Positions 37,700 to 46,905 of a stretch of DNA of 64,000 nucleotides are shown here, piece after piece. The position numbers and the translations under genes were made by a program. This DNA comes from Acidobacteriaceae bacterium. Its GTDB lineage: Bacteria > Acidobacteriota > Terriglobia > Terriglobales > Acidobacteriaceae. The notes below the pieces were generated by a model. That model ran no database searches, was not told the DNA's origin, and saw only the letters and a list, made by a program, of their open reading frames with translations. The stretch is taken from positions 59,983-123,982 of the forward strand of contig PMHV01000059.1 in assembly GCA_003156805.1 (NCBI GenBank), read 5' to 3'. How positions within the stretch are numbered: the stretch's first letter is position 1; each line of letters begins with the position of its first letter.

Positions 37700-39877
37700 G
37701 TGCTCTTCTGTTTACTTCATGGGTTTGCGCGGCGCGGACGGGCTTGGTTCGCGCCCGCGCGAGGCTTTTTGTTGGCGGCTTGCGTTCTGCTGGGAGTTCA
37801 AGCGTTCGGGCAAACGCGCGTTCCAGCGCCACGATCCGGGCACCCTGACGATATCAGCGTAATCCAGCACGTCGTTTTTATCGTCAAAGAAAACCGCTCG
37901 TTCGACAATTACTTCGGTACCTATCCCGGCGCGAACGGAGCCACCACCGCGGTCATCTCCACCGGGCAAACCATCAGTTTGTTGCGCACGCCCGACCCCA
38001 TGCCGCGTGATCTGGGCCACGCCTGGTTTGACGCCCACACCGGCATGGACAACGGAAGCATGGATCTGTTTGACATTCTCGGCGAAGGAAGCATCAATGG
38101 GGACCTGCTGAGCATGTCGCAATTGACCCAGGCCGACATTCCCAACTACTTCAACTACGCGCAGCATTTTGTGTTGGGAGACAACACATTTTCCTCGCTG
38201 GCGGGGGCCAGTTTCGCCAATCACCTCTACACCGTGAGTGCCCAGTCCGGAAACGTGTTCGGCCAGGCGGATCTTTTGAACCAGAATGCGTGGGGATGCG
38301 ATGCCACCCCGGAAATGTATGTTTACCTGTGGAATGACGACGACACGGTCAACACCGTGTTCCCATGTTTTACTTTCGAGACGCTGGCAGATGAAATGCT
38401 AAGCGCGGGCGTGAGCTGGCGTTACTATGCCTCTCCGCAGGGTTTATCGGGTTACTCGTATTCGACGCTGGACGATTTCAGTGCGATCCGCTACGGCCCG
38501 GGGTGGAGCAACGTGGTCAATCACACGCAGTTCAACAGCGACGCGCTCAGCGGCAATTTGCCCGAGGTTTCCTGGCTGATGGCGCTCGCCGGGGACGACG
38601 ATCACCCTCCTTCAGCGGCCTGTCCGGGAGAGAATTGGGCGGTCAATACCCTGAATGCCATCATGAATGGCCCCGATTGGAATTCCACCGCAGTCTTTAT
38701 CTTGTGGGACGATTTTGGAGGGTTCTATGATCACGTGCCCCCGCCCGTGCTGGATAAATTTGGCCTTGGCCCGAGAGTGCCGCTGCTGATTATTTCTCCC
38801 TACGCGATCGCAGGATATATCTCGCACACCCAGTACGAAGCTTCATCCGTGCTGAAGTTCGTCGAGGAACGGTTTGGCCTGCCGCCTCTGGCGGAGCGGG
38901 ATGCGATCGCCAACGACATGACGGATAGCTTTAACTTTTCGCAGAATCCGATCGCTCCTTACATCCTGAGCCCGCGGGTTTGTCCTTTCATTACCCCGGA
39001 TTTCTACTCGGGCGTCCAGTCGGTGGGAGGAACAAGTACAGCGGAAACCCTGACCTTTGTGAATCAAGCGTCGAAGGCGCTGACCATTTCCAGTATCGCG
39101 ACCACGGGGGATTTCTCGCAGACCAATACCTGCCCGGCGAAGCTGAACAAGGCTCAGAGTTGCAATATAAACCTCGCCTTCGCCCCGACTGCGACAGGGC
39201 CGCGCACCGGCACGCTGACCATTACCGACAGCGACCCCAGCAGCCCGCAGGTTTCAAACCTCACCGGAACAGGCACATTTATTTCGCTCACCACACCCAA
39301 GAATTTCGGCACCGTCATTTACGGGGCGAAGAGTGCCCAGGCGATGACCCTGACCAACACAGGCGGCGCAGCCTTGGCCATTTCCAGCATCACCACCCGC
39401 GGACCGTTCACTGAGAGCGACAATTGTAGCGGCAGTGTTGTGGCCGGTGGCAGTTGCCAACTCACACTCAGCTTCGCACCAACTACATCCGGAATCGTCT
39501 ACGGCGATGTCATCGTGAACGCCACCGATCCGGCTAGCCCGGTGATGATCAACTTTTCGGGAACCGGTAAGGCGATCCGGTTTACGCCGGGCAGCCTGAC
39601 ATTCGCGTCGCAGCCGGTCGGCACCACCAGCAAGCCGCAGAATATAAAAGTCATGAATCCCTCCACAACCGACAATTTGATTATGGGAGCGGTCACCGCC
39701 GCGGGAGATTTTGCCGCCGAGTCGAACTGCCCGCAAACGTTGTCACCCGCCGCATCCTGTACCATTCGCGTTACTTTTACTCCAACGCAGACGGGAGTGC
39801 GCACGGGCGCGGTCACAGTGATTGACAGCGATTTCAGAAGTCCGCAAGTGCTGGCTTTGACGGGGACAGGAAGCTAG
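37700..39877 (+). CDS. Phospholipase C/acid-phosphatase-type phosphoesterase with choice-of-anchor D repeats
   Basis: 725-residue secreted protein. A signal segment ([16 protein letters not shown]) is followed by the phosphoesterase family (phospholipase C/AcpA) signature [23 protein letters not shown]. Further active-site motifs are [27 protein letters not shown] and [21 protein letters not shown]. After about residue 435 come three ~95-residue Ig-like ASPM/SPD-2/Hydin (choice-of-anchor D) modules. Each has [15 protein letters not shown]-type and [18 protein letters not shown]-type strands. These bacterial Ig-like repeats often mediate surface attachment. Start GTG at 37700 with GAGGA upstream. 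The substrate may be phospholipid or a phosphomonoester. Confidence 0.92.
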
Positions 39878-39951: not shown

Positions 39952-41220
39952 CTAATGTTTGTAGATCGTGGTGCTGGGGTGGTAGTTGCGCCAGTCGAAC
40001 CAATAGTCTTTCAGTGCGGGGATGCGATCGAGGCATTTGCCCTGAGCCGGACCTGACGTCGCGCAGCCCTGAAAGTTCCACTCGCTGGCGGTCTCGGTAT
40101 CCAGCAGAATCCAATCTTTGCTTTCGCTCTTAAGGAAGAATTCCGCATCATGGCCCCCGATGCGGCTGACGAACACGCGGAATGACTTACCATCCGGGCC
40201 CACGGCCACAAGCAAGGGTGTGCCGTGCACGCGGTCCAGAACCGGTGATTGCTTCACCAGCGCGTCCCAGGGATAAGCGCGGTCTGAGCCCTCGCTTTCG
40301 AGACCCACGACCACGTCTCGCGATTTCAGTTCCGTCCCCGGAAAGCTGATCACCACCGGATACTTGGCGACTTCCGGTTCCCAGTTGCTGTCATATTCCT
40401 TTACGTACTTGGGCACCTGAGCCAGAACGAGTCCGCCGGTAGTTTCGGATTTCCACTCTCCATAGGTGAGTTCGTCGCTGAGCACGAGTTCGAGCGACGC
40501 GCCCCGTAGCGGGCCATAGATGGCTTTGCCTGTGATCTGCTGCCACCACGTGCCGGTTTCCCGGTCGCGCATGAGGAAATTCTGGTTGTTGATGCCGGCC
40601 AGATAAAAATGCAACGTCTTGCCGTTCACGGATCGTGTCCACACCAGACCGGTGTGACAGAGCGTTCAATACGTGACCGCGACGGGGACGCCTCCGACCA
40701 CGTCGTTCAGAACGTGGTGGTAGGCCATTTGGCTGATGGGATAAGCGCGAGCGTCACTGCCCAAGCGCACCGCCAGGATCATTTCTTTTGGGTCGAGCTT
40801 GCTTTGTGCTTCAGCGTCGAATCGCGGGCTGTCGACGGGATGGAACATCCACTCGAAGTAGTTGAGCCGAGCCATCACGGCGGAAAAAGTGACGGCCAGC
40901 AGCGTGAGCACGAGGAGTCCCTTGCGCCAGAGGCCAACGGTTCTCCAAAGAGCGAAGGCAGGGACGAGGCAGGCCAGGGCTGCGATCAGCGTACCCAGAG
41001 GAGCGCGCTGGCGTAGCGCCATCGCAAGCCAGAGCGCGCGCGGCCCCTGATAACGGAACGGCCGAATGACGAAGGCAGGAATGAAAAACAGCGCGATTGC
41101 AGCGCTGGCGCAGACGCAGAACACAGTCCAGATCGAGCGCCGGGCTTGGCGGCTCGTCTGCGGCCGATAAGCTCGTTCCAGTGGCGGCGCGGATGGCGGA
41201 ACTGGCGACGACGCGTTCAT
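39952..41220 (-). CDS. DUF3179 membrane protein with in-frame TGA at the CxxC site (candidate selenoprotein)
   Basis: Reading through one TGA (40666-40668) gives a 422-residue protein with about three N-terminal membrane segments (SIWTVFCVCASAAIALFFIP; GTLIAALACLVPAFALW; GLLVLTLLAVTFSAVMA) and a C-terminal DUF3179 domain. The sequence runs VGGVPVAVTY-TGA-TLCHTGLVW. DUF3179 proteins have TYCxLC here, so the TGA replaces the first Cys and would give Sec185-x-x-Cys188. Frame and family similarity continue without a break on both sides (AYPISQMAYHHVLND before; RDRETGTWWQQITG after). A hairpin with a GGTCT loop follows the TGA. The ATG at 41220 is assumed; the frame is open to a TTG at 41271. The alternative is a recent nonsense mutation of a Cys codon. 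No sel genes are in the window. Confidence 0.8.
40636..40659 (-). promoter_or_regulatory. Candidate bacterial SECIS hairpin
   Basis: Read on the minus strand after the TGA: TGTC (40659-40656) and ACACC form the 5' arm, GGTCT (40650-40646) is the apical loop, and GGTGT then GACA form the 3' arm with one bulged G. The loop starts 15 nt after the TGA. The E. coli fdhF SECIS, bound by SelB, also has a GGUCU apical loop, about 18 nt after its UGA, and a one-base bulge. The structure lies wholly inside the coding frame, as bacterial SECIS elements do. Confidence 0.65.
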
Positions 41221-41357: not shown

Positions 41358-44198
41358 TTACTGGGGCGTGTAATTCTGGTGATAGCTGAGGTCCACCACG
41401 TCCTGGAAACTCGGTGTGCCCGGAGGCAAATTCGCCGGACTCAGGAACAGCGTGTCAAACCAGAAGTTGCGTTTCGGCGCACCGTACACTACCGTGCAAC
41501 ACTTAAAGGTACCCGTGTTGTATTCCGCGTAGTACATGCTGACCAGCGACCCATCGTAATTGAGTATGGCCTGGTTGCCGGGGCTGGCGGCGTTCGAGCC
41601 CCAGTTTTCGAGGAGGCGCAAGAAGTTGTGCAACCCTCCGTCGGTGCCGAAGTCCTCACCTGCGGATGTTTCCCAGCCTGGCTCCGGGAATGGTATGTTT
41701 TTGCCTCCCGCAACCGCCATACGATAATAGGTCTGCGCGGAGGGTAGACGATTGCCGAGCGCGGTGGGGTTGTTCAGACTGTTTAGATCGGTCCAGTTGT
41801 CGGAGAGGATCGAGACTGCGTCGGCGATAATCGCCGCCGCGGAATGCGGTGTGGTGGTGTTGGTGCCCGCGCTGCTCCAAAATGGATCGGAGACGCCGCT
41901 GTTGTAGTCGCCTTGCACGTAAACCGGATTCTCTGAGACCACGGTAAATCCGCCGCCGTTGTTGTCCCAGCGCACGGGCAGGTAGCTGGTGCCGCCGCTC
42001 ATGCCGCCATCCACCAGCTTTAGAGCGTGACGCGCGCCAGTCACCGCATTGGCCTGGCCGGTGGTGTTGCAGGCGAAGGTGGTGTTCGGTGCGGCGTTGA
42101 TTTGAACGTACGGGTTCAGCGGCGTCTTAGTGTTTTGACCAAATCCGTTGCCAATGTTCGCAGCTCCCCAGTTGTCGAGGACTCCATTCTGATCTACGTC
42201 CTCGGGAGAGTAGGTGTAGTACGTGGCAGCCTCCTTGACGCCATCTGGCGTATTTGAGGTTACGGGCTGCGTCGAGTTTACGACATCTTCAAGGCCGGAC
42301 TCCCCGCTGATCACGCCCGGCGGGGTCGCTCCGCCGTTAGACGCGTTCGGATCCGTTAACATGCCGCGATGATCGGAGAAGTACAACACGTAGCCATTCT
42401 GGTTGGTAAGATTCACTGACTTACCAGCGCCCGCGCCGAACGGACCCTTGCCCTCCAGCCACAGCGCCAGATTACCCACGTCGAGTTCCGCGGCGTTTAT
42501 GATCCCGTTCACCGCGCAACCGTTGGGGTTGTCCCTCATTTCGCCTTCCCGGGGGTCATATAAATTGATGGGGTACCAGTTGTTCATGGGAGTTGCGCCG
42601 CCCGTAGGAGAGGTGGCGCTAGGCGAGAGCTGCTGCAGAATCAGGATAGCGTTCGGGTTGATTGAATTGCTGCCCGCGGACCCGTTCGGAGCAGTCAGAA
42701 CCGTGTTATAGGCGCGCCCGAAGCCATACCCCAGCCATTGCGTCGTGATACCCACCCATTTGCCGCTGGCGCTGTTCAGGTATTCGACGCGGATCCAGGC
42801 GCCTACTCCGCCTGGGTTGGTCGGAGCGGTGGGCGGATTGGTTGTGAGTTCGCCGAGCAGAGGCCACGAGGTCCAGCCGTAGGCAAGGCCGGTGGCGGGG
42901 TTGATCGGCGGGGTCCAATTGGCATCCACGCTGGTGTTCGCCATGGCGTAGTATTCGGCGCCGCCTGCCGCTGCTCCTGCGGTGGTAAAAGCGGTTGCCA
43001 CGGCTTGGGAACCATTGAGCGTAAATTGCACGTCTTGTCCGTCGAGGATAGGTCCGCGCTCTGGATGAAGGTCGGCCTGAGTGTCGGCCAGCAGGATACG
43101 AATTTCTGCTTTGTTGTACTCGCGCGATTGTCCAATCGTGCTGGTGGAAAGCTCGCCGGCCAGGGGTTTGCGAATGATCTGAATTGGATCGGTGCAAGGC
43201 GGCGGATTGCTGGTGCAGCTATTCTGCACGAAGGGCAACTGAAGGTTGCTCGCCCCGGTCGCCCCGTTTACGAAGAAGCCGTTGAAGGTTGACGCGGCGA
43301 TACTGGGAAAACCTGGGTTTGCAGTACCGAGGGGAGTGCTGAGGGGTGGTATACCCCCGCTCCAACTGGCATCCCCTGGAATGGCACTTGGCAGCGAGAT
43401 ACAATTTGCCCCGGGCGGAGGGAAGGTATTGAGCGGACAGCCCGAACTTGCGTTGGGAGCGTACACCGTACCGCCATATCCGGACGAGGTAAGGTGACCG
43501 TTCTCCAGTCGATCCGTGATGATCTGGCCAAAAGCTGCGACCTTGTCGTCAAAAACCAGGTCCGCGCCGGAGGCGAGGAACAGGTTGCCGTTGGTGTGGA
43601 CGCGGCCCCCAAAGCTGAAGTTGGGACCGGCGAAATAGCTGCAGTCGTAGCCGCAAAACACGCCGAACTGAAATACCGGAATCAGGGCCACTTCGATGCC
43701 GCGGGTCATATTCACCGACGCCCCAGTCGGCCGGGTGGCATTCACTTGCAACGTCATGGGAATGATTTCGGCATACAGCCCCTGGTCGGGGCCTGAGCTA
43801 ATGGTATTGGACGTGGTTACGGGGTTGCCGTTGGCATCGGTAGCGTAGGTGATGCCCTCAGTGTAGGTGACCGTACCCACCATTGCCGGGGTGGGCGGAA
43901 AATTGATCAAGTTCTGAATCTGGCTGTTGATGGGCGAGGCGCTCGTCTGGTAGAGCGAGGACAGGTCTGCCGTCAGCTTCTCCATGCCCGACTCGGCGTC
44001 ATAATAGGCGATATTGTCTTCCAGGCCATTGCCTCCGGCGCGTACTTCATTGCTCACCATAAACAGGAGTCCGACCGCCAGCCCCGAAAGCAGGACCATG
44101 ATCAGCAGAGCCGCGATCAGGGTAAAACCCCGCGTGCTATTCTTCGACTTGGACTTCGACTTCGACCTTGACTTTGATTTCCCTATACTCGTCCCCAT
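41358..44198 (-). CDS. PilX-like minor pilin/pilus assembly protein, very large, with Lys-Ser repeat leader
   Basis: 946-residue protein, last gene of the operon. The N-terminus is MGTSIGKSKSRSKSKSKSKN followed by a type IV prepilin-like segment RGFTLIAALLIMVLLSGLAVG, in which the usual Glu at position +5 is Ala. The downstream AGGNGLEDNIAYYDAESGMEKL segment is PilX_N-like. Residues ~120-946 are Asn/Gly/Pro-rich with no catalytic motif. The family is usually under 250 residues, so the C-terminal ~800 residues are an unusual extension, possibly an exposed adhesive or tip domain. The ATG at 44198 has GAGGAG upstream. The first 25 codons contain a degenerate 6-bp repeat. Confidence 0.82.
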   Translation of the reverse strand: MGTSIGKSKSRSKSKSKSKNSTRGFTLIAALLIMVLLSGLAVGLLFMVSNEVRAGGNGLEDNIAYYDAESGMEKLTADLSSLYQTSASPINSQIQNLINFPPTPAMVGTVTYTEGITYATDANGNPVTTSNTISSGPDQGLYAEIIPMTLQVNATRPTGASVNMTRGIEVALIPVFQFGVFCGYDCSYFAGPNFSFGGRVHTNGNLFLASGADLVFDDKVAAFGQIITDRLENGHLTSSGYGGTVYAPNASSGCPLNTFPPPGANCISLPSAIPGDASWSGGIPPLSTPLGTANPGFPSIAASTFNGFFVNGATGASNLQLPFVQNSCTSNPPPCTDPIQIIRKPLAGELSTSTIGQSREYNKAEIRILLADTQADLHPERGPILDGQDVQFTLNGSQAVATAFTTAGAAAGGAEYYAMANTSVDANWTPPINPATGLAYGWTSWPLLGELTTNPPTAPTNPGGVGAWIRVEYLNSASGKWVGITTQWLGYGFGRAYNTVLTAPNGSAGSNSINPNAILILQQLSPSATSPTGGATPMNNWYPINLYDPREGEMRDNPNGCAVNGIINAAELDVGNLALWLEGKGPFGAGAGKSVNLTNQNGYVLYFSDHRGMLTDPNASNGGATPPGVISGESGLEDVVNSTQPVTSNTPDGVKEAATYYTYSPEDVDQNGVLDNWGAANIGNGFGQNTKTPLNPYVQINAAPNTTFACNTTGQANAVTGARHALKLVDGGMSGGTSYLPVRWDNNGGGFTVVSENPVYVQGDYNSGVSDPFWSSAGTNTTTPHSAAAIIADAVSILSDNWTDLNSLNNPTALGNRLPSAQTYYRMAVAGGKNIPFPEPGWETSAGEDFGTDGGLHNFLRLLENWGSNAASPGNQAILNYDGSLVSMYYAEYNTGTFKCCTVVYGAPKRNFWFDTLFLSPANLPPGTPSFQDVVDLSYHQNYTPQ
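44150..44185 (-). repeat. Degenerate hexanucleotide repeat encoding (Lys-Ser)n
   Basis: Six-base units of the form AAGTCG/AAATCA/AAGTCC are repeated in tandem at the 5' end of the pilX-like gene and encode alternating Lys-Ser (one Arg). A variable number of units would change the leader length without a frame shift. Confidence 0.7.
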
Positions 44199-44226
44199 GT
44201 ATGTCTCCTCGCTCCCCTGAAACCCC

Positions 44227-45306
44227 TCACTGGTAGGTGTTGCGGAACGCCATGTTGCGTGCGCTGATCGATGTCGCCAGATACATGTTTTGTGACCGAT
44301 TGCCATTCGGCGTCAAACTCTCTCCCATGACCACCAGGTTGATTTTCTGAATCAAGTTGGGGGATTCGCCCACTCCGATGGGATTGGGTTCGTTTGCGTC
44401 CAGCACGTTGGTGGTGGAGTTGTATACGTCATAGGAGAACTGCAGATTAATGATATTGTCGGCCACTGGCACGGGGGTTAATCCGTTTACCTGGCGCATC
44501 AGGCGCGGAAGCTGGCCGTTGGTTGGAACTGTTAAGTAGTAGGTAACGGCGAAAAGGCGGTAGGCCGTGGTGGGAGTACCGGCGGCGATCGCCTGAATGT
44601 TATTGGTGATGCCAGGGGCCGCGCCCGGCTGGTTCACGTTTAACGGGTCGGTGGCAGCAAAGCTGATGCCGCCCGCAGTCAGCCCCGTAACTTCGCCCAC
44701 CGCGTTGCCCGCGGAATTGCTAAGTAGAATGAGGTCCCCCACCTGGATGCCTCCGGGAGAATTGATCGCGACCGGGGCGGGAATATAAATCGGGTTAGGC
44801 GCCACGGTGATCGAGGTGCCATTTGACCCGGCGGGAAAAGTCACGGTGTACTCAAACAGCGGAAAATTGTAGTCGGCATAGACCACCGTGATGCTGTCGT
44901 TAACCTGTCCTGGAGCGGAAGGAACTGTCGCGTTGCCTTGCACGCCGTTGCTGTACCCGGGGATGATTCCGTACATGTAATTGTTCGTGTACGTATAAGC
45001 GGGAACGTAGCAGGTGCCGCTCTGATCGCAACCGTATTTCTCAGGGGAAGATCCACCTCCGGTGGGCAACTGGACCCCGCCGGTGGGCAAGCCTGCGCCG
45101 GCCATGTTGATGTCCTTATTCATGATCTCCATGGCGGCACGCATGTTTTGCTGGCCCTCGATGCGTTGTGCAACGATAAACGTGGAATCCATGCCGGTCT
45201 TGAACAATGAGGTCAGAGCGGCCATAACGATGAGACCCAGGGCCATCGAGATCAGAAGCTCGATTAGAGTGAATCCGCTGTCGTTCTTTCCTGCTTGCAT
45301 CTTCAT
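44227..45306 (-). CDS. PilW-like minor pilin (prepilin N-methylation domain)
   Basis: About 359 residues with a short leader and the class III signal DSGFTLIELLISMALGLIVMAALTSLF, where cleavage follows Gly and Phe is methylated. The IEGQQNMRAAMEIMNKDINMAGAG segment is typical of PilW-like proteins. The rest is a beta-rich globular domain with MYGIIPGYSN and SVVYADYNFPLFEYTV-like strands. The start may be the ATG at 45306 or the one at 45300; a GTGAGGA sequence lies immediately upstream. Fifteen bases separate it from the preceding pilV-like gene. It is likely exported and assembled as a minor tip component. Confidence 0.88.
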   Translation of the reverse strand: MKMQAGKNDSGFTLIELLISMALGLIVMAALTSLFKTGMDSTFIVAQRIEGQQNMRAAMEIMNKDINMAGAGLPTGGVQLPTGGGSSPEKYGCDQSGTCYVPAYTYTNNYMYGIIPGYSNGVQGNATVPSAPGQVNDSITVVYADYNFPLFEYTVTFPAGSNGTSITVAPNPIYIPAPVAINSPGGIQVGDLILLSNSAGNAVGEVTGLTAGGISFAATDPLNVNQPGAAPGITNNIQAIAAGTPTTAYRLFAVTYYLTVPTNGQLPRLMRQVNGLTPVPVADNIINLQFSYDVYNSTTNVLDANEPNPIGVGESPNLIQKINLVVMGESLTPNGNRSQNMYLATSISARNMAFRNTYQ

Positions 45307-45321
45307 AATCCTCACCAGTGC

Positions 45322-45924
45322 TTAGCGGTATGTCGAGATCAGGGCATTCACGGTGTAATCGCGCGAAGCCGTCATCCCGGGTTTGGTATAGGAAACGGTG
45401 ACCACAATCTGTTTCAAATTGGGGTCGATGGTGACGCCATCGCTTTCCAGTACGCTATTGATGGCAATCGTCCGGGTGAAGTTGGCCAGGCTCATGGCCA
45501 CGTCATCCGCGGTTCCCAGGATGCCATCCGGACCGGGAAGGACTACGCATTCCGGGCCGGCCGGGCAGATCCCGTTAGCTGGATAGTTGATGTCGTCCAC
45601 GGTGCCCACCAGGCCATCCGGGCCGGCTGCGAGAAGCTGTGTTGGGCCGGCGGTGAAGATGCCGTTGGGGAAGTTGGCGATTTGAGCGAACACGATCTGC
45701 TGGGTGTTGCGGGCGGTGTAGATGCTCTCCATCGCCTCCAGGGCTTTCTGCCGCGCAATCAAATCCTCCTGGGCCGACTTGGTCGCGCCTATCGCCGTTC
45801 CAAACACGGCGATCAGAGCTACCAGGCTAATGGTCATGATGGCGATTGCGATCATGACCTCAACCAGCGAGAAGCCGCGCTGGGATTGGCGGGCTGGCAT
45901 TCGAGTCTTTGGGTTTCGCGTCAT
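45322..45924 (-). CDS. PilV-like minor pilin
   Basis: 200-residue prepilin-like protein. The leader MTRNPKTRMPARQSQRG precedes GFSLVEVMIAIAIMTISLVALIAVFG, the methylated N-terminal helix with the canonical Glu5. The globular part has repeated GPDGxxGTxDD turns (GPDGLVGTVDDI and GPDGILGTADDV), which resemble Ca2+-binding DxDG-type loops. The ATG at 45924 lies two bases after the stop of the gspH-like gene, and its stop is 15 bases before the pilW-like gene. All four genes are therefore tightly linked. Confidence 0.9.
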   Translation of the reverse strand: MTRNPKTRMPARQSQRGFSLVEVMIAIAIMTISLVALIAVFGTAIGATKSAQEDLIARQKALEAMESIYTARNTQQIVFAQIANFPNGIFTAGPTQLLAAGPDGLVGTVDDINYPANGICPAGPECVVLPGPDGILGTADDVAMSLANFTRTIAINSVLESDGVTIDPNLKQIVVTVSYTKPGMTASRDYTVNALISTYR

Positions 45925-45926
45925 GG

Positions 45927-46553
45927 TTATTGTTGTACCCACGTGTTTACTCCCGCCTGCAAATACAGGCGCCATCCACGGATTCTGCCCGTGGCGCCGA
46001 AAACGGTAATTGCCCGCGAACTGTAAAGGTCGCCGGCGCGTCCCATGTAGAGCACTCCGCTGTTCCAGTTGCCCAGCAGATCCTGGGAAGAACCGTCGGG
46101 CATGAACATGACATAGTCTTGGCTGCCCAGGCCCATGCCTTGATCGAAGTCAATGGCGACGGTCCCAGCGCCAAACCCATCCGGCACGGCCGCGGCAGTG
46201 CTGGGATAGCCTGCCTGCGTCGAGAACGTGACGTCTGGCGGCAGGGTGAGAGTGTCGACCACCACCGGCGCGGGCGAGACCGGCACGGCGTAGTCCCAGC
46301 GCGCAATCGTGATGGTGCTCGGGTTGGGGGCGCCCGGGTTTGTGAAGGTTACGATGTAGCGTTTGCGCTGCACGATAGACAGATTCTGGTAGTTGCGCAA
46401 TGCCATCAACGTCGTGTCGTAAGCGGAGCTGACGTTGTTCTGCTTCATCATGGGCAGCAACGCGATGACGGAAACAGCCGCGACCGTGAAACCGATGGCG
46501 ACGACGATCATCATTTCCAGCAGTGAGAAGCCGTTTTGTTTTCTCGATGCCAT
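45927..46553 (-). CDS. FimT/GspH-like minor pilin
   Basis: 208-residue prepilin-like protein and first gene of the operon. The leader MASRKQN is followed by GFSLLEMMIVVAIGFTVAAVSVIALLP, with the conserved Gly, Phe and Glu5. The C-terminal half is a beta-sandwich region (RKRYIVTFTNPG, GRIRGWRLYLQAG) resembling GspH/FimT minor pseudopilins. The ATG at 46553 has an AGGGA ribosome-binding site; the longer upstream frame is rejected because it precedes the class III leader. Proteins of this kind prime assembly of type IV pili or type II secretion pseudopili. Confidence 0.88.
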   Translation of the reverse strand: MASRKQNGFSLLEMMIVVAIGFTVAAVSVIALLPMMKQNNVSSAYDTTLMALRNYQNLSIVQRKRYIVTFTNPGAPNPSTITIARWDYAVPVSPAPVVVDTLTLPPDVTFSTQAGYPSTAAAVPDGFGAGTVAIDFDQGMGLGSQDYVMFMPDGSSQDLLGNWNSGVLYMGRAGDLYSSRAITVFGATGRIRGWRLYLQAGVNTWVQQ

Positions 46554-46905
46554 AATCCCTTGCTGGGCGAACCGCCCGATTCTCCAAATGCTGGCCGCTC
46601 TTGGCGCCGGCCGCGCGCCGGTGTCCGAAAAACTCAACCGCCTGACCGGCCGAAACCTGCGTTGCTTGCCGGGAGAGCAATCCGAAGCGCACTTGCTGCG
46701 GGGAGGTAGACTTCATCCTAGGAAGGCGCTCCAGTGGCGTCAAAGCACGACGGTGCAATGCCGGGACATTGGCCTTTTGTAATTGGAGTGGTTACCCACG
46801 TCACCGCATTGACTCTGCTTTACTTAATGCGTTTCTCACGACGCTAGTCCGACGGGGGCGTGACTCCGGTAACTTGTCGGCGGAACCGGCGTGATCCTAC
46901 GATGG
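46554..46905. other. Divergent intergenic region between pilin operon and PilZ gene
   Basis: Holds the candidate minus-strand promoter at 46715-46743. No convincing promoter for the plus-strand PilZ gene and no convincing sigma-54 site was found. A long open frame extends the gspH-like gene upstream but shows no pilin leader. Confidence 0.5.
46715..46743 (-). promoter_or_regulatory. Candidate promoter of the minor-pilin operon
   Basis: On the minus strand TTGACG (46743-46738) and TAGGAT (46720-46715) are separated by exactly 17 bases, giving five of six and four of six matches to sigma-70 consensus. The predicted leader is about 155 bases. Confidence 0.4.

Follow-up and report, generated by a model that had tools for sequence, protein, structure and literature searches.

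A predicted selenocysteine-containing DUF3179 membrane protein in an Acidobacteriaceae genome

The interrupted DUF3179 gene and its neighbours

A DUF3179 gene interrupted by a single in-frame TGA was identified in the window, that is, the whole stretch of 64,000 nucleotides analysed (Table 1). The original prediction had given the right coordinates without a strand, and its claim of one TGA within an otherwise continuous DUF3179 frame was confirmed. With the TGA taken as a residue, the full protein matched PF11376 with E=2.3e-63 (214.8 bits against a gathering cut-off of 27) and belongs to the family. Taken alone, the segment preceding the TGA and the one following it also matched PF11376, in consecutive regions of the model. 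No NCBIfam model was found for the protein. The dN/dS against eight relatives was 0.1-0.25 before the TGA and about 0.1 after it, so both parts are translated in this frame.

The residue context of the TGA was GVPVAVTY-U-TLCHTGLVW. As had been proposed, the TGA took the position of the first Cys of the motif, which was invariant (C/U) in an alignment of 40 family members. Four residues were invariant in this alignment (Cys/Sec, D, W and G), and a His located 17 residues before the Cys/Sec was nearly so. A GTG at 40644 opened an ORF of 230 aa without the first part of the DUF3179 domain, which agreed with the earlier statement that a start there would give a domain lacking its N-terminal part.

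The minor-pilin-like cluster upstream of the DUF3179 gene was syntenic in about ten close relatives, and not in more distant ones. A phosphoesterase gene was located between a HAD gene and the DUF3179 gene; its homologue was absent from the matching loci of relatives, thus it was probably inserted or lineage-specific. When the neighbourhood was compared as a clue to function, the other neighbours of DUF3179 differed between relatives.

Table 1. Features of the DUF3179 locus and of the formate dehydrogenase locus in the same genome
Feature	Position	Strand	Basis or content
DUF3179 gene, predicted selenoprotein	39952..41220	-	422 codons, from ATG (41220) to TAG (39954-39952) through one TGA; PF11376 match; architecture shared by orthologues
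In-frame TGA, codon 185, predicted Sec, first position of U-x-x-C-H	40666..40668	-	Orthologue and family alignments
Predicted SECIS hairpin	40639..40657	-	Fold, synonymous constraint, pairing counts
Predicted N-terminal membrane anchor, three long helices (residues 24-51, 60-92 and 97-116)	40873..41151	-	AlphaFold2; hydrophobicity judged by eye
First DUF3179 repeat, bearing the predicted Sec	40360..40821	-	Profile-profile match to the second repeat; AlphaFold2 pLDDT 95.5
Second DUF3179 repeat, without Cys or Sec	39955..40341	-	hhalign against the first repeat
Minor-pilin-like cluster	41358-46637	-	PilX_N-like protein of 982 aa and two N_methyl proteins
Phosphoesterase (PF04185) fused to several ASH-type Ig-like repeats	37700-39877	+	
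FdnG with Sec TGA (at L211:1649), fdnH and fdnI	L211:1043-5856, contig C18		

Selenocysteine machinery, TGA orthologues and the hairpin

The genes for Sec insertion, which the original prediction had suggested looking for, were found in the genome holding the window (5.03 Mb, 75 contigs, 95% complete). A tRNA-Sec with anticodon UCA (68 bits) was present together with selA (551 bits), selB (364 bits) and selD (363 bits), each far above its curated cut-off, giving selA, selB, selC and selD in one genome. The selD gene (locus L017, contig C33) was a selenoprotein gene itself, with an in-frame TGA in the active site (AAG-U-ASKLSP). In addition, an FdnG-type formate dehydrogenase alpha subunit with a Sec TGA in the canonical context ARV-U-HGP was encoded on the contig of the tRNA-Sec. 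The hairpin of this fdnG gene had an AGUU loop, in contrast to GGUCU in the DUF3179 gene.

A total of 107 distinct CHTG-type orthologues were collected from a family scan of 200 genomes and from further phylum and named-genome loci. When these homologues were aligned at the TGA, as had been proposed, the site of codon 185 was TGA in 94 and TGC in 13; recurrence of TGA in 94 of 107 orthologues is beyond chance. Within the family scan the readable sites were TGA except for four TGC, and a selB match existed in all 24 TGA genomes and in none of the four TGC genomes. The 13 TGC orthologues formed one fully supported clade and corresponded to one change on the tree, so the link between TGC and loss of selB counts as one evolutionary event. 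Cys homologues at the Sec position were thus represented by these 13 orthologues and by further Cys paralogues. Thirty more distant DUF3179 genes, mostly of the TWUPL type, also carried TGA at the same codon.

The nearest named relatives were Acidobacteriota genomes, many of them carrying the label Acidobacteriaceae or Candidatus Sulfotelmatobacter. Across the phylum, many genomes (loci L057-L118) had several DUF3179 paralogues each, and TGA-bearing and TGA-free paralogues could occur within one genome (e.g. G200, G207, G223 and G558). DUF3179 genes of about 27-29% identity were also observed on plasmids from haloarchaea and a few from bacteria (e.g. NZ_CP078064.1), and no relatives were found in phages.

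The GGUCU-loop hairpin that had been expected after the TGA was present by folding. Counted from the U of UGA, the predicted SECIS covered nt 12-30, with the apical loop GGTCT at nt 19-23 and the sequence CACACC-GGTCT-GGTGTG (stem U/C-CACACC with GGTGTG-G). The single-sequence fold had a z of about 0 against shuffles, a stability not unusual for its composition, so the hairpin claim is carried by comparative evidence. No match was obtained in an Rfam search of the window.

Synonymous constraint was expressed as the top-codon fraction over 79 well-conserved codons with synonyms. In the TGA orthologues the hairpin codons, H-T-G-L-V, had fractions of 0.95-1.00 and were the five highest of the 79; the remaining conserved codons had a median of 0.595 and a maximum of 0.94, the latter for the codon directly after the TGA. 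The odds of five given codons ranking first are about 1 in 22 million if codons are assumed to be exchangeable. The same five codons in the TGC orthologues had fractions of 0.38-0.77, with a median of 0.62 equal to that of the rest. The GGTCT loop occurred in 90 of 94 TGA genes and in one of 13 TGC genes, and all seven stem pairs were intact in 87 of 94 and two of 13, respectively. TGA homologues without the hairpin, which the original prediction had named as evidence that would speak against it, were therefore not the pattern observed. Among individual genes, L134 had the TGA with one broken stem pair (CACAC/GTCTG), L080-L082 and L184 had loops other than GGTCT, and L040 had TGC and a compensated pair (CATAC/GTATG).

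Little covariation was visible among the close orthologues, since the hairpin was nearly invariant there. In the distant TGA-type DUF3179 genes the hairpin was shifted 5 nt further downstream, with 94.6% of cells paired, a value reached in none of 500 shuffles. Five of its seven pairs covaried, and 20 cells were changed on both sides against 3.3 in shuffles, while the Cys paralogues of these genes did not keep the hairpin (39% paired). Thus a hairpin directly 3' of the UGA was under selection, as judged from constraint in the orthologues and covariation in the relatives.

Domain architecture and fold

The AlphaFold2 model of the whole protein (pLDDT 93, pTM 0.87) showed three long helices at the N-terminus together with a domain rich in beta structure. 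This domain was a tandem repeat, with the first and second repeats matching each other in hhalign at a probability of 99.8% (E=4.2e-29). The second Cys of U-x-x-C was replaced in many TGA homologues (by A, T, V, S or D), so the pair is not required in all members. Several other DUF3179 proteins had signal peptides or lipoboxes when their sequences were judged by eye, and the domain is therefore likely to be extracytoplasmic.

The best-ranked Foldseek matches of the first repeat were mostly Rieske domains, with probabilities up to 1.0 and TM-scores of 0.5-0.6 by target length, and no Foldseek match reached E 0.001. The second repeat matched a Rieske profile in hhalign with a probability of 62% (P=7.4e-5, 74 columns), and no sequence match to this profile was obtained for the first repeat. 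The CxH and CxxH boxes of Rieske [2Fe-2S] proteins were not found in the DUF3179 alignment, and Pfam Rieske was unmatched. Searched by sequence, the PDB returned nothing for the whole protein and matches at chance level for the first repeat. AlphaFold2 and Foldseek weakly suggest a tandem Rieske-like fold that lacks the cluster ligands.

Two more specific assignments were rejected. One equated the TYCPLC loop with Rieske box 2 (CPxHG) and the conserved upstream His with the His of box 1; this was unsupported by hhalign, in which box 2 fell at the D-x-x-T-x-S-x-W motif of the second repeat. Another took U/C-x-x-C-H of the CHTG subfamily as a haem c site (CxxCH); the second C and the H were lost in other DUF3179 members, and cytochrome models gave no match to the window protein.

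Decoding of the TGA, possible function and known systems

The sel genes, the conserved TGA, the constrained and covarying hairpin and the low dN/dS together make it very likely that Sec is inserted, and codon 185 is almost certainly decoded as Sec; this part of the original prediction was strongly supported. A TGT or TGC mutated or misread to TGA, in a pseudogene or through a sequencing error, would need only a single substitution between TGA and TGC, but the same TGA was present in 93 other orthologues from many assemblies, dN/dS stayed low downstream of it and the hairpin was constrained; with TGA, frame and hairpin all conserved, this explanation is in practice refuted. It is also most improbable that the locus encodes two proteins, one ending at the TGA and another starting from the GTG at 40644. 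That GTG was indeed 98% conserved in the TGA orthologues, but its place in the 3' side of the hairpin explains this: the codon varied in the TGC orthologues (GTG in eight, GTC in three, GTA in two), where the ORF is unbroken, and a start there would leave out the invariant residue and cut the first repeat in two. The UGA might instead be recoded as Cys by a SelB-using, tRNA-Sec-like tRNA-Cys (tRNA-ReC). Such tRNAs are known from other bacteria, which also have tRNA-Sec, and TGA and TGC interchange in this family. However, the 13 RF01852 matches in the 95%-complete genome comprised one tRNA-Sec (UCA) and ordinary tRNAs, with no second UCA tRNA and no tRNA-Sec-like tRNA-Cys among them, and the tRNA-Cys near selC was an ordinary one of 76 nt, which makes Cys recoding very unlikely.

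A different question is what an inserted Sec would do. It could serve as a metal ligand or in another reaction on a Rieske-like fold instead of in a thiol/selenol oxidoreductase, a possibility held to be less likely than the redox role. The mostly Rieske matches of the first repeat, the profile match of the second and the dispensability of the C at +3 in some members are in line with it. Against it, the Foldseek E-values and TM-scores were modest and the first repeat lacked a sequence match; moreover, the cluster ligands were missing, and the Sec fell off the ligand positions in the alignment of the second repeat. Confidence is high for the Sec-insertion part of the reading, with a redox role as the most likely function.

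For such a redox selenoprotein, a ribosome arriving at the UGA of codon 185 would meet the downstream hairpin, whose GGUCU loop would recruit SelB with Sec-tRNA-Sec, and Sec would be placed at the position of the invariant Cys of the family, to give a protein of 422 aa. In this product, three membrane helices at the N-terminus would be followed by two DUF3179 repeats, the first of which has U-T-L-C-H. It could act as a membrane-anchored selenol/thiol oxidoreductase outside the cytoplasm, in which Sec would attack as nucleophile and the Cys three residues after it would resolve the intermediate. Motif and family make it reasonably probable that the window protein is an extracytoplasmic redox enzyme. 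A more speculative idea is that DUF3179 is a cluster-free tandem Rieske-like fold turned into a membrane-tethered extracytoplasmic selenol enzyme, widespread in soil Acidobacteriota. To our knowledge, no tandem Rieske-like redox scaffold has been known among selenoproteins.

Compared with Rieske domains (e.g. 2qpz, 3gce and 5cxm), the DUF3179 repeat had a weak but consistent likeness in fold, whereas the [2Fe-2S] ligands were absent and the Sec-bearing repeat was without sequence match. The SECIS elements of E. coli fdhF and fdnG are hairpins directly 3' of the UGA, and their apical loop is GGUC(U). The window hairpin was alike in its placement 3' of the UGA and in its loop, but this loop was about 3 nt closer to the UGA than in E. 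coli and no bulged U was apparent. It was also 5 nt closer than the loop of the TWUPL-type relatives.

The original prediction had supposed a DUF3179 selenoprotein to be undescribed, which did not hold, since two reviews already include DUF3179 (pfam11376, UxxC/T) among the predicted selenoprotein families (PMC9312934, 2022; PMC13188914, 2026). In their entries on the family both reviews credit the work of Zhang and Gladyshev 2007 on the Olavius algarvensis symbiont (PMC9312934, PMC13188914), and a full-text literature search gave just three papers naming DUF3179, these two among them. Having an in-frame UGA in place of the first Cys of CxxC/T, the window gene is a well-supported further member of this already predicted family. 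As far as those entries describe the predicted DUF3179 selenoproteins, the window protein shares their Pfam family and has Sec at the same U-x-x-C/T motif, and differs in its CHTG-type subfamily, its three N-terminal membrane helices and its origin from Acidobacteriota. The present analysis contributes the extent of the set in Acidobacteriota, the evidence for the SECIS, the pattern of Sec/Cys and selB, and a lead on the fold. It gives the predicted family strong comparative backing in soil Acidobacteriota. Gene callers that take UGA only as a stop will split such genes. Since Sec and Cys orthologues occur naturally side by side, and two differently placed SECIS hairpins exist within one family, the exchange of Sec and Cys, recognition by SelB and the role of the DUF3179 domain become testable.
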